Positions 18,822 to 60,763 of a stretch of DNA of 64,000 nt are shown in pieces; positions within the stretch are counted from its first letter, which is position 1, and every line of letters starts with the position of its first letter. Position numbers and translations under genes: made by a program. Under the pieces are notes generated by a model. The model was not told the DNA's origin. It was given only the letters and a program-made list of their open reading frames with translations, and made no database searches. Location: positions 6,820,001 to 6,884,000 of the forward strand of contig NZ_JAFBCM010000001.1 in NCBI RefSeq assembly GCF_016907715.1, in the 5' to 3' direction. Source of the DNA: Tenggerimyces flavus. Lineage in GTDB: Bacteria; Actinomycetota; Actinomycetes; Propionibacteriales; Actinopolymorphaceae.

Positions 18822-20066
18822 CTAGGCAGCCGGTACGAACCGGTGGTTGCGGAGTGGGGTTCGGCTGGGGTCGATCCAGTCCGGGGGTAAGAACTCCGGT
18901 AACCCATCGCGTGCGAGTCGGATGGTCCATGCACCTTGGTGGATGAGTCGGTGGTGGTAGCCGCAGAGCAGCACCCCGTTGTCGCGGCTGGTCTTGCCGC
19001 CCTCCGACCAGGGGGTGAGGTGGTGGGCGTGGCACCAGCCGGGTGGGCGGTCACATCCGGGGAACGCGCACCCGCCGTCGCGTAGCTCGAGGAGCCGGCG
19101 GAGTTTGCCTTGGAAGAGTCGCTGCTCGGTGTCGGTGAGAAGGGTGACTCGGCCGGGCTGGTCCTCGGGCTTGACGAGGTAGGTGCGGTCGGCTTCGCAC
19201 ATGAGCTGGTCGACGATCTTCCGGGACAGCTCGATCCCGGTGTGCAACGTGCGTCCACCCGTGTTCGTGACGGTGACCACCAGCTGGGTCGGGTTCCCAC
19301 CATGCGAGGGCACGAGCTTGTCGGCCAAGAGTCGGCGGCACGCCTCATCCAACGCGTCGACGTTGCGTTGTTCGGGGAGCCGGGTGTCGCGGCCGTCAGG
19401 CCCGGGCTGTGGAGCGGCCAACGGGTCGAGAACGAGCTTGAGCCGCTCCCCCACTACCTTCGGCAGCCGGCCGTTGACCGGCCAGGTGCCGGTGGTCTCG
19501 TCGTAGGACATGCGGAAGAACCGGCCCCGCTCGGCGTGAGCCTCGTCGAGCTTGAGCTTCTGCTCCAACACCTGGTCAGCGAGATCCGGGGCGACAGTCT
19601 CCAACAGCCGGTTCCCGAGCTGCCGCACCGTGACTGGATCGAACGTGGCGGATCGCTCAACCAGCGTCGCTTCGACTCGGGAGCGCAGCTCGGGGGTGGA
19701 GATCTGCGGCGGCAGCATCGTCACAACCCGGGAGATGACGCGGGCATGACCGACAGAGATGTCACCGTCGGCGAGGGCTTGGGTGGTGGCCGGCAACTCC
19801 GAGTCGAGGTGGCTGGCGAGCTTCACCATCGCCCCCGCCTCGGCCGGAGGAACCCGGAGCATGCCGGCGACCCATTGTTGGGTGTTCGCGGCTCCAGCGG
19901 TGACGGCGAGGTTGCGGCCATCGGCCTCGCGGATCAGTTCGAGCCGGCGGGCTTCGTGCTTGTGGAGTGCGGTCTGGTTGTCGAGGAGTGCGGTGGTGAG
20001 TTGGTCGTCGGACATCGACCACGCCGCAGCACCGGCGATGCCGTTCGAGCAGATGGTCGATTCCAT
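18822..20066 (-). CDS. DUF222-HNH endonuclease-type protein (13E12-like), copy A
   Basis: A 414-residue protein with a helical DUF222 region (about 20-300) and a C-terminal HNH domain (CAFPGCDRPPGWCHAHHLTP, then NGVLLCGYHHRLIH) with the Cys/His zinc-knuckle ligands and the HH pair of the nuclease site. It belongs to the 13E12 repeat family known from mycobacteria, whose role is unresolved. It is the most divergent of three copies here (others at 40007 and 59510). TAGAAT 6 bp before the ATG and a TTGGGC 19 bp further up suggest a leaderless message. Its stop overlaps that of the split DUF1761 gene. Confidence 0.92.
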   Translation of the reverse strand: MESTICSNGIAGAAAWSMSDDQLTTALLDNQTALHKHEARRLELIREADGRNLAVTAGAANTQQWVAGMLRVPPAEAGAMVKLASHLDSELPATTQALADGDISVGHARVISRVVTMLPPQISTPELRSRVEATLVERSATFDPVTVRQLGNRLLETVAPDLADQVLEQKLKLDEAHAERGRFFRMSYDETTGTWPVNGRLPKVVGERLKLVLDPLAAPQPGPDGRDTRLPEQRNVDALDEACRRLLADKLVPSHGGNPTQLVVTVTNTGGRTLHTGIELSRKIVDQLMCEADRTYLVKPEDQPGRVTLLTDTEQRLFQGKLRRLLELRDGGCAFPGCDRPPGWCHAHHLTPWSEGGKTSRDNGVLLCGYHHRLIHQGAWTIRLARDGLPEFLPPDWIDPSRTPLRNHRFVPAA

Positions 20067-20072
20067 AGCAGA

Positions 20073-20103
20073 ATTCTACCAAGCGAATCGACCTAATGCC
20101 CAA
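20073..20103 (-). promoter_or_regulatory. Predicted leaderless promoter of HNH copy A
   Basis: On the minus strand, TTGGGC (20098-20103), a 19-bp spacer and TAGAAT (20073-20078) end 6 bp before the ATG. The same arrangement and spacing occurs at copies B and C. Confidence 0.65.
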
Positions 20104-20480
20104 CCCAGCAAGGGAAATATCCCGGCTTCATCTCAACGCCAAGAGACCGAAGGCCCCACAAGCAACCCAAGCACGGCAGCAGACGGATCGGCAAGCAGGC
20201 CTGGCCCGGGGAACTGTTCCGGGGGGGCGGGGCGGCGCGTGAAAATCTGGTGGCCACACTCGACCGCCGCAACAGCCCGACCAGCTAATCGCCAAGCACA
20301 GTTGAGCAAAGCAACAGCAAGAGCGAGGAGCAACACGCCCCCAAGGAGGCGGCGATGAAGAGCATAGAAGTGACAGTTCACCGGTGACGTGGCATGAGGG
20401 AGCGGAGGTGCGCGAGGTGGCGGCAATGCGAGGCACGGAGTGCTGGGTGAAGTGGCAGCCCCAGTGGGTGAAGTGAATGG
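20104..20480. repeat. Conserved non-coding leader of HNH copy A (hairpin module absent)
   Basis: Upstream of the promoter this stretch matches the leaders of copies B and C in order: a GGGGAACTGTTCCGGGG block (20208-20224), GGCGGCGCGTGAAAATCTGG (20231-20250), then the CGACCGCCGCAACAGCCC block (20261-20278) and an AGCAACAGCAAGAGC block. The ~100-nt hairpin present between the GAAAATCTGG and CGACCGCC blocks in B and C is missing here. Beyond it lie two GGGTGAAGTG motifs (20445-20475) of the palindromic repeat family. No gene is seen between here and the pseudogene at 20690. Confidence 0.8.
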
Positions 20481-40018: not shown

Positions 40019-41260
40019 GGTGAGGCGGTGGTTGCGGAGTGGTTGTTGGTGGGGGTCGATCCAGTCGGGGGGTAAGAACTCCGGTAATCCGTCGAGCGCT
40101 ATTCGGACCTGCCACGCGCCTTGGTGGATTAACCGGTGGTGATACCCACACAGCAGGACCCCGTTGTCGCGAGTAGTCGGCCCGCCCTTACTCCACGGGA
40201 CCACATGGTGAGCGTGACACCAACCAGGTGGCCGATCACACCCGGGGAACGCACACCCGCCGTCGCGGAGTTCGAGGATGCGGCGGAGTTTGCCTTGGAA
40301 CAGTCGCTGCTGGGTGTCGGTCAGCAGTGTGACTCTGCCGGGCCGGTCCTCGGGCTTCACCAAGTAGGTGCGGTCCGCTTCGCACATGAGCTGGTCGACG
40401 AGTTTGCGGGACAGCTCGATCCCGGTGTGCAAAGTCCGCCCACCAGTCTGGGTGAGGGTCACGACCAGTTGGGTCGGGTTCCCACCATGAGAGGGCACCA
40501 GCCGCTCGGCCAACAACCGCCGGCAGGCCTCATCCAGAGCATCCACATTGCGCTGCTCGGGGAACCGGGTGTCACGGCCGTCGGGTCCGGGCTGCGGCGC
40601 CGCCAGCGGGTCGAGCACAAGTTTGAGGCGTTCCCCGACCACCTTCGGGAGCCGGGCGGTGACCCGCCACGTCCCCGACGTGGCGTCGAAGCTCATGCGG
40701 AGGAACCGGTCCCGCTCAGCGCTGGCCTCTTCCTGCTTGAGCTTCAACTCCAGGACCTGGTCAGCAAGATCCGGCGCGACGGTCTCCAACAACCGGTTCC
40801 CGACCTTCCCCAAGACTTTGGGGTCGAAGGTCGCGGCATTCTTCAGCAGGGTCGCCTCCACCTCGGAGCGGAGTTCCGGGGTGGAGATGTGGGAGGGCAG
40901 CAGCTGCACCACCCGCGAGATCACCCGGGCGTGCGGAACAGAGATCTCGCCGTCAGCTAACGCTTGCGCGGTGGCGGGCAACTCGTGGTGCAGGTGGCTG
41001 GCCAGCTTCACCATCGCCCCAGCCTCAGCCGAAGGAACACGAAGGACGCCGGCCACCCACTGCGCGGTGTTCGCGGCACCCGCGGTGACGGCGAGGTTCC
41101 GGGCGTCGGCCTCGCGGATGAGCTCGAGCCGCCGGCCTTCGTGCCGGTGGAGTGCCGCCTCGTTGTCGAGGAGTGCGGTGGTGAGTTGGTCATCGGACAT
41201 CGACCACGCCGACACCCCATCGGCGGTGCCGGTGGTGTTCGAGCAGGTGGTCGATTCCAT
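40007..41260 (-). CDS. DUF222-HNH endonuclease-type protein (13E12-like), copy B
   Basis: A 417-residue paralogue of copies A and C. The middle and C-terminal parts are almost identical to copy C, including GTWRVTARLPKVVGERLKLV and the HNH block CAFPGCDRPPGWCHAHH, whereas the N-terminal ~110 residues differ at many positions, a mosaic pattern. All zinc and HH residues of the HNH site are present. The promoter (TTGAGC, 19 bp, TAGAAT) again ends a few bases before the ATG. A 9-bp stem-loop covers the stop codon. Confidence 0.93.
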   Translation of the reverse strand: MESTTCSNTTGTADGVSAWSMSDDQLTTALLDNEAALHRHEGRRLELIREADARNLAVTAGAANTAQWVAGVLRVPSAEAGAMVKLASHLHHELPATAQALADGEISVPHARVISRVVQLLPSHISTPELRSEVEATLLKNAATFDPKVLGKVGNRLLETVAPDLADQVLELKLKQEEASAERDRFLRMSFDATSGTWRVTARLPKVVGERLKLVLDPLAAPQPGPDGRDTRFPEQRNVDALDEACRRLLAERLVPSHGGNPTQLVVTLTQTGGRTLHTGIELSRKLVDQLMCEADRTYLVKPEDRPGRVTLLTDTQQRLFQGKLRRILELRDGGCAFPGCDRPPGWCHAHHVVPWSKGGPTTRDNGVLLCGYHHRLIHQGAWQVRIALDGLPEFLPPDWIDPHQQPLRNHRLTPAA

Positions 41261-41266
41261 AGCACA

Positions 41267-41297
41267 ATTCTACCAGCCGAACCGGTCTAATGCTCAA
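41267..41297 (-). promoter_or_regulatory. Predicted leaderless promoter of HNH copy B
   Basis: On the minus strand, TTGAGC (41292-41297), a 19-bp spacer and TAGAAT (41267-41272) end 6 bp before the ATG at 41260, as at copies A and C. Confidence 0.65.
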
Positions 41298-41745
41298 CCC
41301 GGCAACGGAAATCCCCGGCTTCATCGAAACTACAAGAGGCCGGGGGCTCCACAAGAAGCCGCAACACGGCAGCAGACGGGAACGACAAGCGGGCCTTGCC
41401 CGGGGAACTGTTCCGGGGGGTGGGGCGGCGCGTGAAAATCTGGTGGCCGGGCCGGGGCGAGTCAAGGGCCGCAACGCGGTCGCGAAGCGACGTCGCCCCT
41501 CTGCGAAGCCGCCGCGGCGCCCTTGACGCGCCCCGGACCGGCCACCACAATCGACCGCCGCAACAGCCCGACCAGCTACTTCACCCAAGCACAGCAGGGA
41601 AAAGCAACAGCAAGAGCAGAAGCACAGCACCGTCCCCAAGAGGCGAAGGTGAAGAGGATGGGAGTGACGGTCGAGAGCTGGGAGCGACCGAGCGGTGGAC
41701 GATGTTGAAGAGGAAGTAGTGGGCTAGCGAGGCGCGGCATGGAGT
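41298..41745. repeat. Conserved non-coding leader of HNH copy B, with hairpin module
   Basis: The stretch matches the copy C leader throughout: the GGGGAACTGTTCCGGGG block (41403-41419), the GTGAAAATCTGG block, the hairpin module (41442-41547), the CGACCGCCGCAACAGCCC block (41553-41570), then AGCAACAGCAAGAGC and GTGAAGAGGATGGGAG. Long open frames on the opposite strand are low-complexity and unlikely to be genes. Confidence 0.85.
41442..41547. ncRNA. Candidate structured RNA or DNA hairpin module, copy B
   Basis: A 106-nt segment closed by GGTGGCCGG (41442-41450) pairing with CCGGCCACC (41539-41547), then CCGGGGCG with CGCCCCGG, then GTCAAGGGC with GCCCTTGAC. Inside are small hairpins: CCGCAACGCGG and TCGCGAAGCGA. 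Pairing is possible on either strand, so direction is unknown. It is present at copies B and C and absent from A. Confidence 0.5.
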
Positions 41746-41776
41746 GATGGTCGCGGGGTAAGCGCAAGGTGGCGGG

Positions 41777-41957
41777 CCGGTGGGTGACGTGACGGGCCGG
41801 TGGGTGACGTGACGGCCGGTGGGTGACGGCCGGTGGGTGACGTGACGGCCGGTGGGTGACGTGACGGGCCGGTGGGTGACGTGACGGCCGGTGGGTGACG
41901 TGACGGGCCGGTGGGTGACGTGACGGCCGGTGGGTGACGTGACGGCCGGTGGGTGAG
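41777..41957. repeat. Tandem array of ten 19-20-bp units
   Basis: Ten copies of CCGGTGGGTGA followed mostly by CGTGACG(G), with one copy shortened to 14 bp. There are no unique spacers, so it is not a CRISPR array. It encodes only a repetitive His/Pro/Arg string on the minus strand and is not a gene. Confidence 0.9.
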
Positions 41958-42811
41958 GTGAGAGGTGCGGGACTAGCCGGGATGGGACATGCGTGGGGAT
42001 GAGAAGGATGGCGGCTGGATGCGGCGGCGGGTGATGGCCGCGGGAGCGGCCGGAGTGGGAGCGATGGCCGCTGGCGGAAGACGGGTACTGGTCGCGGGAG
42101 TGGGAGCGATGACTTCCGGGTGGCATCGATGGATGGGTCCGAAAGTGGAGTGAAGGTGAGGTGATGGGCCGCTGGGTGGCAACGGTGGAGGGGCGGGAGC
42201 GACAGGCCTCGGAGTGCGGCTCGACACCCAATCACGAAACCACGACGACCACGCCCAGCCGCGCACCACAACCAGCGCGTCACGACCCGAACGGGCAGGA
42301 ACCGCTGCCCGGTGGGCGAAGTAGCGGCCGCCTGGGCGACGTCGCCACGCGGCGGATGAACAGACGGCTCGGTGAGTGCAGAGCCACGGTGAGGTGTCGG
42401 GGTAGTGGGCCGAGGCGGCGGCCCGGTGGACGAGGTCGCGGACGGAAGGTGACGTGCCGGGGTGAGGTCTCAGGGGTGGTGGACGAAGTCGCGGCCCAGA
42501 GGATGAGGCGACGGCCCTAGCGGGTGTGGCCGGGGGTAGGTGAAGTCACGGCACCGTGGGTCAAGTGACGGCCCGGGTAGACGGGTGGACAAAGACGGTG
42601 CGGGACAACGGAGACGGGTGATCACCGTCGGGGTGGGAGTGCGGCGCCGAGGGTCACGTGACGGCCCGTTGGGCGAGGCCTGGGGTGGGGTGAAGTCGCC
42701 CGCCACCCGCACGAGCAATCGCAACCCATCAAGTAACAGTCCGGCATCCGAGGCAACAAACAGCCCCCGCACGATGTCTTTAACGGTGAACGAACCGAAG
42801 GCGGGGGGTCG
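41958..42811. other. Gene-free stretch with decayed copies of the G-rich repeat
   Basis: No gene is recognisable. From about 42290 to 42690 there are degenerate relatives of the preceding array and of the palindromic element arm (for example GGTGGGCGAAGTAGCGGCC, GGTGGACGAAGTCGCGGCC, GGTAGGTGAAGTCACGGC and GTGGGTCAAGTGACGGCC). The last ~120 bp should hold the promoter of the glycosyltransferase operon; a GGCGGGGGG ribosome-binding site precedes its ATG. Confidence 0.6.
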
Positions 42812-58769: not shown

Positions 58770-59220
58770 CCTGCTTGCTGGTCTTATCCTCTTGCTGTTG
58801 CTTTGCCCTGCTGGGCTTGGGCAAGTAGCTGGTCGGGTTGTTGTGGCGGTCGATTGTGGTGGCCGGGCTGCCACCTTGCGCCCATCACTCCGCCCCCGCG
58901 CTCGCACCTAGCCCGCTACTTCCGTCCTCTTCATCATCGCCCCTCCGGGGGCGTGCTGTCCTCTGTTGATTTGCCCCACCCTGCTTGAGCAAGGCATCTG
59001 ATCGGGGCTGTTGCGGCGGTCGATTGTGGTGGCCGGGCTGCCACCTTGCGCACCCCGCGACCATCACTCCGCCCCACGCGCTCGCACCTAGCCCGCTACC
59101 TCCCATCCTCTTCACCTCCGCCCCTTTTGGGGCGGTGCTGTGCTTCTGCTCTTGTTGTTGCTTTTCCCTGCTGCGCTTGGCGATTAGCTGGTCGGGCTGT
59201 GGCGGCGGTCGATTGTGGTG
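58770..59220. repeat. Three tandem 170-190-bp repeats in the leader of HNH copy C
   Basis: CGATTGTGGT recurs at 58851, 59021 and 59210, each time after a CTGGTCGGG- or ATCGGGGCTG-type block, and in the first two followed by GGCCGGGCTGCCACCTTGCG. Each unit also carries a C/G hairpin such as CCGCCCC-TTTT-GGGGCGG (near 59120). The third unit runs into the hairpin module. Copies A and B carry only one such unit. Confidence 0.85.
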
Positions 59221-59327
59221 GCCGGTCCGGGGCGCGTCGAGGGCGCCTCTCTGGGGCGCTTCGCGGAGGAGAGAGGCGTCGCTTCGCGACCGCTTTGCGG
59301 CCCTTGACTCGCCCCGGCCCGGCCACC
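59217..59327. ncRNA. Candidate structured RNA or DNA hairpin module, copy C
   Basis: A 111-nt counterpart of 41442-41547 in the opposite orientation, closed by GGTGGCCGG (59217-59225) with CCGGCCACC (59319-59327). The outer pairings match copy B, while one internal arm differs: here CGCCTCTCT and AGAGAGGCG form an added 9-bp hairpin with no equivalent in B. Outer stems conserved with a variable inner arm is what a selected fold, or a mobile hairpin, would show. Confidence 0.5.
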
Positions 59328-59472
59328 AGATTTTCACGCGCCGCCCCTGCCCCCGGAACAGTTCCCCGGGACAGGTCTCCTGTGCCTTGGGTTTGCTGCC
59401 GTGCTTGGGTTGCTTGTGGAGCCCACGGCTTGCTTACGGCTCGGATGAAGTCGGGGGATTTCCCTTGCCGGG
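59328..59472. repeat. Conserved promoter-proximal leader of HNH copy C
   Basis: Between hairpin and promoter this contains the CCAGATTTTCACGCGCCGCC block, the GGAACAGTTCC palindrome (59355-59365) and TCCCTTGCCGGGTTGAGC, all shared in order with copies A and B. No reading frame is conserved across it, so it is not coding. Confidence 0.8.
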
Positions 59473-59503
59473 TTGAGCATTAAGCCGATTCGGCTGGTAG
59501 AAT
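59473..59503 (+). promoter_or_regulatory. Predicted leaderless promoter of HNH copy C
   Basis: TTGAGC (59473-59478), a 19-bp spacer and TAGAAT (59498-59503) end 6 bp before the ATG at 59510; no ribosome-binding site is present. Identical layout to copies A and B. Confidence 0.65.
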
Positions 59504-59509
59504 TCTGCT

Positions 59510-60763
59510 ATGGAATCGACCACCTGCTCGAACACCATCGGCACCGCCGGTGGTGTGTCGGCGTGGTCGATGTCCGATGACCAACTCACCACCGCACTTC
59601 TCGACAACGCCACCCAGCTGAACCAGCTCCAGGGCCGCCAGCTCGAGCTCATCCGCGAAGCCGAGGCCCGCAACCTTGGTGTCACGGCTGGTGCGGCGAA
59701 CACCGCGCAGTGGGTCGCTGGTCGGCTTCGGGTCCCGACGGCTGAGGCGGGGGCGATGGTGAAGCTGGCCTCTCATCTCGACGCCGAGTTGCCCGCCACC
59801 GCGCGGGCGCTTGCTAGCGGCGAGATTTCTCTTCCACAGGTGCGGGTGATCTCCCGGGTCGTGACGATGCTGCCCTCCCACATCGCCACCCCGGAGCTCC
59901 GCTCCGAGGTGGAGGCGACCCTGCTGAAGAATGCCGCCGCCTTCGACCCCAAAGTCTTGTCGAAGGTCGGGAACAGGCTCTTGGAGACCGTCGCTCCGGA
60001 CCTCGCTGACCAGGTCCTGGAACTGAAGCTCAAACAGGAAGAGGCCAGCGCCGAACGGGACCGGTTCCTGCGTATGTCCTTCGACGCCACGTCGGGGACG
60101 TGGCGGGTCACCGCCCGGCTCCCGAAGGTGGTCGGGGAACGCCTCAAGCTGGTTCTCGATCCGTTGGCTGCGCCGCAGCCTGGACCCGACGGGCGTGACA
60201 CCCGGTTCCCCGAGCAGCGCAATGTGGATGCTTTGGATGAGGCTTGCCGGCGGTTGTTGGCTGAGCGGTTGGTGCCCTCTCATGGCGGGAACCCCACCCA
60301 GGTGGTCGTCACCGTCACCCAGACTGGTGGGCGGACTTTGCACACCGGGATCGAGCTGTCCCGCCGCCTGGTCGAGCAGCTGATGTGTGAGGCCGACCGC
60401 ACCTACCTCGTGAAGCCCGAGGACCAGCCCGGCCGCGTCAGCCTCTTGACCGACACCCAGCAGCGACTCTTCCAGGGCAAGCTGCGCCGGTTGCTCGAGC
60501 TCAGAGACGGTGGCTGTGCGTTCCCCGGCTGTGACCGGCCACCCGGCTGGTGCCACGCCCACCACGTCACCCCCTGGAGTAAGGGCGGGCCCACTACCCG
60601 CGACAACGGGGTCCTGCTCTGCGGGTACCACCACCGACTCATCCACCAAGGCACCTGGCAAGTCCGCATCGCACTCGACGGATTACCCGAGTTCTTACCC
60701 CCCGACTGGATCGACCCCCACCAACAACCACTCCGCAACCACCGCCTCACCCCAGCCGCCTAA
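59510..60763 (+). CDS. DUF222-HNH endonuclease-type protein (13E12-like), copy C
   Basis: A 417-residue paralogue of copies A and B with the same plan: a DUF222 helical region to about 320 and an HNH domain at 336-378 (CAFPGCDRPPGWCHAHHVTP; NGVLLCGYHHRLIH). It agrees with copy B almost throughout residues 115-417, but residues 30-110 differ much more (for example QLNQLQGRQLELIREAEARN here). All zinc and HH residues are kept, so a nuclease activity is possible. Its non-coding leader is the longest of the three. Confidence 0.93.
   Translation: MESTTCSNTIGTAGGVSAWSMSDDQLTTALLDNATQLNQLQGRQLELIREAEARNLGVTAGAANTAQWVAGRLRVPTAEAGAMVKLASHLDAELPATARALASGEISLPQVRVISRVVTMLPSHIATPELRSEVEATLLKNAAAFDPKVLSKVGNRLLETVAPDLADQVLELKLKQEEASAERDRFLRMSFDATSGTWRVTARLPKVVGERLKLVLDPLAAPQPGPDGRDTRFPEQRNVDALDEACRRLLAERLVPSHGGNPTQVVVTVTQTGGRTLHTGIELSRRLVEQLMCEADRTYLVKPEDQPGRVSLLTDTQQRLFQGKLRRLLELRDGGCAFPGCDRPPGWCHAHHVTPWSKGGPTTRDNGVLLCGYHHRLIHQGTWQVRIALDGLPEFLPPDWIDPHQQPLRNHRLTPAA

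Follow-up and report, generated by a model that had tools for sequence, protein, structure and literature searches.

Three genes in the window, which is the whole stretch of 64,000 nucleotides analysed here and lies within one 8.52-Mb contig of the Tenggerimyces flavus genome (G000), encode DUF222-HNH proteins, and each of them is preceded by a similar non-coding region. What is this region, and is it linked to the gene that follows it? The first-pass annotation of the window had described it as a leader of the HNH gene and had offered a guide-like or regulatory RNA, a recognition site, or the untranscribed end of a mobile unit as explanations. We found that the "leader" is a hairpin-forming DNA repeat, dispersed in the genome, that here lies fused to the upstream side of a nuclease gene. 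The result is a compound unit, which often consists of a minisatellite, the hairpin core, a promoter, and the DUF222-HNH gene. The features of the three copies (A, B, and C) are listed in Table 1.

Table 1. Features of the three DUF222-HNH units in the window (positions counted from the first nucleotide of the window)
Feature	Position	Strand	Remark
Copy A, DUF222-HNH gene, 414 aa	18822-20066	-	
Copy A, promoter -10 box and start, TAGAAT-6 nt-ATG	20063-20078	-	leaderless start inferred
Copy A, core remnant	20121-20274	-	outer stem halves 20260-20270 and 20230-20240 retained; without inner hairpin
Copy A, palindromic block CCCCGGAACAGTTCCCCGGG (block 1)	20205-20224	-	
Copy B, DUF222-HNH gene, 417 aa	40007-41260	-	
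Copy B, promoter -10 box and start	41257-41272	-	
Copy B, complete core	41314-41565	-	
Copy B, 5' domain of core	41422-41565	-	imperfect palindrome with three-hairpin tip; 150.3 bits with model R1
Copy B, palindromic block	41399-41418	-	
Minisatellite 5' of core B, 19 bp x 9.9	41775-41961	.	
Copy C, two partial duplicates in 5' flank	58776-59036	+	58776-58866 and 58872-59036
Copy C, complete core	59198-59455	+	
Copy C, 5' domain of core	59198-59347	+	imperfect palindrome with three-hairpin tip; 161.9 bits with model R1, C itself being among the sequences used to build R1
Copy C, palindromic block	59351-59370	+	
Copy C, promoter -10 box and start	59498-59513	+	
Copy C, DUF222-HNH gene, 417 aa	59510-60763	+	AlphaFold model: ParB/Noc-like residues 36-168, HNH 323-394

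The four sequence blocks reported earlier are all present at A, B, and C, and their order is identical. Block 1, GGGGAACTGTTCCGGGG, is exact at 20208-20224 (A), 41402-41418 (B), and 59351-59367(-) (C), and GTGAAAATCTGG was found at 20239, 41432, and 59326(-), respectively. Block 3 starts at 20261 (A), 41552 (B), and 59194(-) (C), and block 4 at 20310 (A), 41603 (B), and 59148(-) (C). Copy C has additional copies upstream, namely block 3 at 59005 and, with mismatches, at 58835, and block 4 at 58788 with a mismatch. Block 1 is itself a palindrome, which in all three copies precedes the -10 box by about 130 bp, and it lies 3' of an imperfect palindrome of about 150 bp that was absent from the annotation. 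The inner part of this palindrome is present in B and C but missing in copy A. According to Pfam, the three genes encode DUF222 (PF02720, 114.8-131.1 bits) and then HNH, which also scored above its cut-off.

The genome holds many more such units than the three reported. There were 27 DUF222 matches, and 23 of them form one family (115-138 bits); among the rest, L024 and L025 are about 45% identical to the main family, and L026 and L027 are remote. The ORFs are 414-418 aa long in 22 of the 23 family members, and L007 enters foreign sequence near its end, where, judged by eye, we take an IS3-type ORF to be fused to the gene. When the 460 bp upstream of each gene were aligned, the upstream region proved common to all 23 family copies, so a chance similarity of the blocks is untenable. 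A core of about 260 bp precedes the promoter in 22 of the 23, and copy A is the only one without the inner hairpin. From 5' to 3', the layout consists of a variable part, the long imperfect palindrome, CCCCGGAACAGTTCCCCGGG or a variant of it, conserved blocks, and TAGAAT-6 nt-ATG. Beyond the core on the 5' side the copies diverge, and many have a minisatellite there. These minisatellites differ between gene-linked copies; the one directly 5' of the L022 core contains 62.8 repeats of 26 bp that are 99% identical (L188:9253-10885, G000:C1).

Actinobacterial genes with a -10 box very near the ATG are often leaderless. In all 23 aligned copies the TAGAAT box ends 6 nt before the ATG, which suggests an mRNA that starts at the ATG. 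Because this promoter lies between core and gene, the core would be upstream of the transcript and is probably no mRNA leader. We also considered an mRNA leader or riboswitch and rejected it, since the constant TAGAAT-6 nt-ATG arrangement suggests a leaderless start.

Structurally, the core is a long imperfect palindrome that carries three small hairpins at its tip, and covariation, which had been proposed as a check, was found above the level of shuffled alignments both within the genome and between genomes. Alignment A2 contained 52 cores, namely 22 gene-linked ones and 30 of the 64 solos (close cores not before a DUF222 gene; see below). Its structure has 49 pairs, with 98.2% of the cells paired, and changes on both sides occurred in 9 pairs and 69 cells (5.5 and 22 in shuffles; 1-4 pairs in slid controls). 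Within T. flavus this covariation sits in the small hairpins; the long stem is nearly invariant and hence uninformative. Alignment A5 contained 20 hairpins from five genomes, six of them from T. flavus, with L232 (G012) excluded. Here both-side changes were seen in 16 of 30 pairs and in 80 cells (27 in shuffles; 3-7 pairs in slid controls), the structure having been derived from A5 itself, which favours the test. Between genomes the stems are rewritten yet still paired, and the tip GTCAAGG...CCTTGAC and the small hairpins are constant.

To estimate the abundance of the core in the genome, we used R1, a covariance model of its 5' domain, and considered the best 150 rows, 46 of which are the antisense reading of the palindrome. 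Close cores occupy at least 86 places at 118 bits or more: 22 are gene-linked and 64 are not before a DUF222 gene. In addition, a manual count gave 18 further places with diverged copies (66-96 bits). When the leader of copy C served as BLAST query, the gene-linked copies were returned together with at least 18 places away from family genes (among the best 40 candidates), and further copies were found with a gene-less copy as query (again among the best 40). A feature confined to DUF222 genes was therefore rejected. The tie of the leader to the HNH gene stands insofar as 22 of the 23 family genes have a core before them, but at least 64 close cores lie elsewhere. Thus, the core is palindromic with compensatory changes, multi-copy, and mostly gene-less.

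The solos examined are flanked on both sides by sequence unlike that of the gene-linked copies. They terminate in a double palindrome, TGAAGGGCACCTTCA...TGAAGGTGCCCTTCA, in all eight solos fetched with a leader-only query (the best 8 of 18 listed); the 30 aligned solos came from a query that contained this 3' double palindrome, and its presence there is uninformative. No double palindrome was found at the 23 gene loci within the 3.9 kb examined. A double palindrome with TGAAGGNNNCCTTCA twice occurs 131 times across the genome (for example, L058:1847-1891), and double palindromes together with the types GTGATCATG and GGACCAGGGTGCC form mosaic intergenic arrays around many gene-less cores. According to a rough ORF caller, the core was free of called ORFs, i.e., intergenic, at 28 of 30 solos, and the same caller gave no rule for their orientation to the neighbouring genes (10 convergent, 14 tandem, 5 divergent, and 1 open). 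No replication-strand bias of the cores was found (Fisher P = 0.53, with contig position 1 assumed as origin). Among the 86 close cores, only one neighbouring pair lies within 6 kb, and two more inverted pairs appear once the diverged R1 copies are included. Of the 22 gene-linked units, only L018 has another close core within 6 kb. Along its locus (L018/L197, G000:C1:2561311-2564723), the first core is followed by the DUF222 gene, an IS, the tail of the gene, and finally a second, inverted core.

How closely is the core tied to DUF222? The gene-linked cores form one clade, which contains 22 of 22 gene-linked cores and none of the 30 sampled solos (support 0.94); the linkage is therefore mostly one event copied many times. 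L025, whose protein is 45% identical to the family, is preceded by a diverged hairpin (77.3 bits) that lies some 150-300 bp from the start, as far away as the hairpin in the family, which suggests a second link of the hairpin to DUF222. Its sister L024 has the same leader without the inner hairpin, as copy A does. Judged from the sequences, copy A and L024 look like independent losses of the hairpin; deletion of a palindrome between short repeats is common in DNA.

As DNA, the leader was found in none of 37 other genomes at E 1e-8 (among at most 19 candidates scored per genome), the relatives compared being other genera, and a leader conserved as DNA sequence was rejected on this result. Similarity of the leader beyond its own copies, on which the functional link had been made to depend, was thus not found as DNA in these 37 genomes and within T. 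flavus traces to one clade, but the hairpin of L025 extends it. We then looked at 79 DUF222 loci of other organisms (Actinopolymorpha, Micromonospora, Phytohabitans, and others) obtained with the A1 query; a contig search of other genomes with the protein as query returned no loci. No hairpin was found at E < 0.05 at these 79 loci, four of which have less than 500 bp upstream. Six chance-like matches had E-values of 0.1-0.77 with R1, and L091 reached 0.06 with R2, a more general model. R2 was also run on 16 of the 20 loci fetched from the DUF222 search of chosen genomes. Conversely, there was no DUF222 within 1.5 kb of 15 R1 hairpin loci in other genomes, one of which is cut by a contig end. 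Hairpin and DUF222 are also not adjacent in G034 and G025, where they lie at least 13.9 kb apart (nearest pair in G034) among the DUF222 matches listed (17 of 28 in G025 and 14 of 15 in G034). The comparison of upstream regions that had been proposed thus unites all 23 family copies in T. flavus, but the DUF222 copies of each relative compared share mainly the promoter-proximal 50-150 bp, longer stretches in some pairs, and other repeats. Alignment A3 was made without row L118 (stop in the translation) and A6 without L148 (wrong frame). In Actinopolymorpha alba, the upstream regions of L091, L092, L093, L096, and L114 contain palindromes (GTGATCATG...) resembling those around the T. flavus solos.

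The hairpin itself occurs in other actinobacteria. R1 had matches in 5 of 56 other genomes of the order, and R2 in 18 of 197 genomes of the class, T. flavus included, with rough E-values for both models. R2 was partly built from matches in G025, G027, G034, and G014, which fit by construction, and G190 is independent. The weak matches in G012 and G014 (R1) and the single ones near 48 bits (R2) may be chance palindromes, and we relied on the genomes with multiple matches (G025, G027, G034, and G190). Conservation across species thus holds for the hairpin type, which crosses genera, but there it lies away from DUF222. G190 has at least 20 hairpin matches, including eight inverted pairs 1.0-3.7 kb apart (L273-L280). 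The ends of these units are inverted and near-identical over about 250 of the 320 bp compared. Among the cargo proteins tested, Pfam identified two GntR regulators, a GDSL hydrolase, and one DDE_5 transposase; another is presumably HAD-like, judged by eye. PF02720 had no match in G190. These results indicate that the hairpin can end a mobile-looking unit without DUF222. In G034, there are three inverted hairpin pairs 0.28-0.46 kb apart. A protein of about 80 aa recurs in three G190 units, and the one tested had no Pfam match.

What does the gene encode? All 36 members searched with Pfam have DUF222 and HNH; 16 other families were each matched by one member, at E 0.008 or worse. There was no RuvC in the 36 members by Pfam and no ParB model among the families listed up to E 5. 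No HUH (Y1) transposase was found in the gene. The full-length structural model has a moderate pLDDT of 76, and the N-terminal domain alone was modelled well (pLDDT 89.5). In the fold search with this domain, the ten best rows were all Noc/ParB/Spo0J, with Z 6.9-9.8 and the first unrelated row at 6.1; the tool cautions that for helical domains Z below about 13 may reflect a mere common arrangement. The six best ParB-type rows superpose at 2.2-2.8 A over 97-103 residues. The ParB rows of Foldseek had E 0.5 or worse, and the PDB profile matches to ParB had E 0.08-0.2. The HNH domain is nearest to IscB (E 8.7e-6, Z 6.5) and then to McrA (Z 6.3). On these models, the protein is probably a ParB/Noc-like DNA-binding domain joined to an HNH nuclease, and it is likely that it acts as a DNA-reading HNH nuclease. 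No published account of such a leader or of a ParB-like DUF222 was found in the accessible literature searched.

Gene and leader are mosaics of alleles that are common to the copies. For 22 leader-plus-gene sequences with 283 biallelic sites, mean r2 was 0.26 at 1-10 bp, 0.11 at 11-30 bp, and 0.05 at more than 800 bp, and the share of site pairs with four gametes climbed from 45% to 83% with distance. Conservation is equal in the leader (0.899) and the gene (0.902). In the REP13E12 regions of Mycobacterium tuberculosis, 87 gene conversion events were detected (PMC13061034). Cutting by a nuclease within its own family would account for both the mosaicism and the REP13E12 conversion, and so would homologous recombination between repeats without any nuclease.

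These mycobacterial DUF222-HNH repeats, named 13E12/REP13E12 (PMC10589994), are similar to the present family in having DUF222 and HNH, several paralogs, and frequent gene conversion (PMC13061034). However, a hairpin leader and dispersed gene-less hairpins are not described for mycobacteria in the accessible parts of these two sources. One of them, a 2026 preprint, mentions a putative phage attachment site in REP13E12 and states that the REP13E12 regions have no defined function (PMC13061034). The REP/RAYT systems (BIMEs and REPtrons) are likewise high-copy dispersed extragenic palindromes, some of them beside a candidate processing-enzyme gene. Nevertheless, the core measures 150-260 bp and a REP 20-40 bp, and the enzyme here is DUF222 plus HNH, whereas RAYT is an HUH tyrosine transposase (PMC3733652). 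The alternating neighbouring repeats of BIMEs are also not the T. flavus pattern, as the single close pair among the 86 cores indicates. With ParB/Noc the family shares the modelled helix-turn-helix DNA-binding fold (Z up to 9.8, by model only), but in DUF222-HNH an HNH nuclease follows this domain. The inverted hairpin ends around the G190 cargo and the three close inverted pairs in G034 resemble MITE-like TIR transposons, but the T. flavus cores are mostly single, and L018 is the only two-ended unit of the 22.

We consider a partnership between the repeat and a ParB-type nuclease, of a RAYT-REP-like or homing-like kind, to be the leading explanation, at a tentative probability of about 0.43. 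The DUF222-HNH protein would read a palindrome in the core and would nick or cut there. Repair from another copy would homogenise genes and cores and might occasionally copy the whole unit, and the gene-less cores may be non-autonomous partners. In its logic this would resemble RAYT-REP pairs or homing endonucleases, although the enzyme is of another kind. Among the explanations offered at the outset, a recognition site or the untranscribed end of a mobile unit fits best, in view of the dispersed palindrome, its place upstream of a probably leaderless promoter, and the unit ends in G190. A wider proposal would be that DUF222-HNH proteins are unrecognised ParB-type site-reading nucleases that copy, convert, or move palindromes with a four-way-junction tip, and that the hairpin is a conserved end or processing site of several unrelated actinobacterial mobile elements; taken as a whole, this is speculative and rather unlikely.

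The main rival, possible but less probable than the partnership, is that the hairpin is the end structure of a transposon-like repeat moved by another enzyme, and that DUF222-HNH was captured once and spread as cargo. The eight inverted pairs in G190, which bound units with varied cargo and no DUF222, argue for this, as do the single clade of the gene-linked cores and the inverted second core beyond the gene in L018. However, two-ended units are not the rule in T. flavus, where one pair lies within 6 kb among 86 cores. Furthermore, PF13546 (DDE_5) and PF01797 (Y1), the only transposase families searched, find nothing in this genome, and L025 suggests a second link to DUF222. An operator or boundary, where the ParB-like domain binds the core palindromes and controls or insulates its own promoter and mobility is incidental, is improbable. 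The steady distance of CCCCGGAACAGTTCCCCGGG from the -10 box in all three copies and the ParB-type DNA binders at the top of the fold search are what such a role would predict, but at least 64 cores stand before no DUF222 gene, the 30 solos examined show no fixed orientation to their neighbours by the rough ORF caller, and the gene of copy A is intact although its hairpin is missing. We regard it as very improbable that the region has no function and that the hairpin is a chance passenger in a recent duplication of one gene and its flank. The failure to find the leader DNA in the other 37 genomes and the single clade are consistent with this; the compensatory changes that preserve the core, the hairpin type kept across genera, and the second subfamily with a hairpin are not.

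The least probable reading is that transcription of the core yields a structured RNA, perhaps guide-like, for the HNH protein, as omegaRNA is for IscB. Like IscB with its omegaRNA (HEARO), the unit has a conserved structured region immediately before an HNH gene and an HNH domain that is closest to IscB in sequence and fold, and the core folds strongly as RNA (z-score -4.7). However, the DNA z-score is as extreme (-5.3), as any palindrome would give. Among one-sided changes on the gene strand, G-U did not outnumber A-C (4 against 9 positions in A2, and 4 against 6 in A5), so selection on a gene-strand RNA is not visible, and an RNA from the opposite strand stays compatible with these counts. 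The HEARO/omegaRNA covariance model is included in Rfam, and no Rfam family matched the window and five loci at gathering score; when four loci were searched with the limit relaxed to E 1, there were four matches, each to a microRNA family and far below the gathering score of that family. In addition, unlike IscB/HEARO, DUF222-HNH has no RuvC by Pfam and has its promoter between structure and gene, downstream of which the transcript probably begins. No variable guide segment was seen at a fixed place in the core alignments. The protein model also reads as DNA-binding, and the guide-like or regulatory RNA of the first-pass annotation was set aside in favour of the repeat-nuclease partnership.

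DUF222 was found in 11 of the 12 genomes searched, with 1 to 40 matches each (the genomes were hand-chosen and non-random, and matches may be gene parts). If the site-reading nuclease view is true, it gives a function to a much-repeated uncharacterised actinobacterial gene family. The ParB-like domain, the candidate target beside the gene, and the natural versions with and without the hairpin make the question amenable to laboratory tests. The hairpin family, whose tip is constant while the stems vary freely, could also mark mobile units in other genomes.

Finally, in L002, L009, and L018, one and the same sequence, more than 1.2 kb long and 96-99.7% identical between the copies, directly follows the DUF222 stop; by eye, we take it to be an IS110-type transposase. 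The 3' end of the DUF222 gene looks like a favoured insertion site. In addition, the L001 and L006 units share 250 bp of upstream flank and 107 bp of downstream flank in rearranged form, and the shared upstream flank is presumably the end of a citrate synthase gene, again judged by eye.
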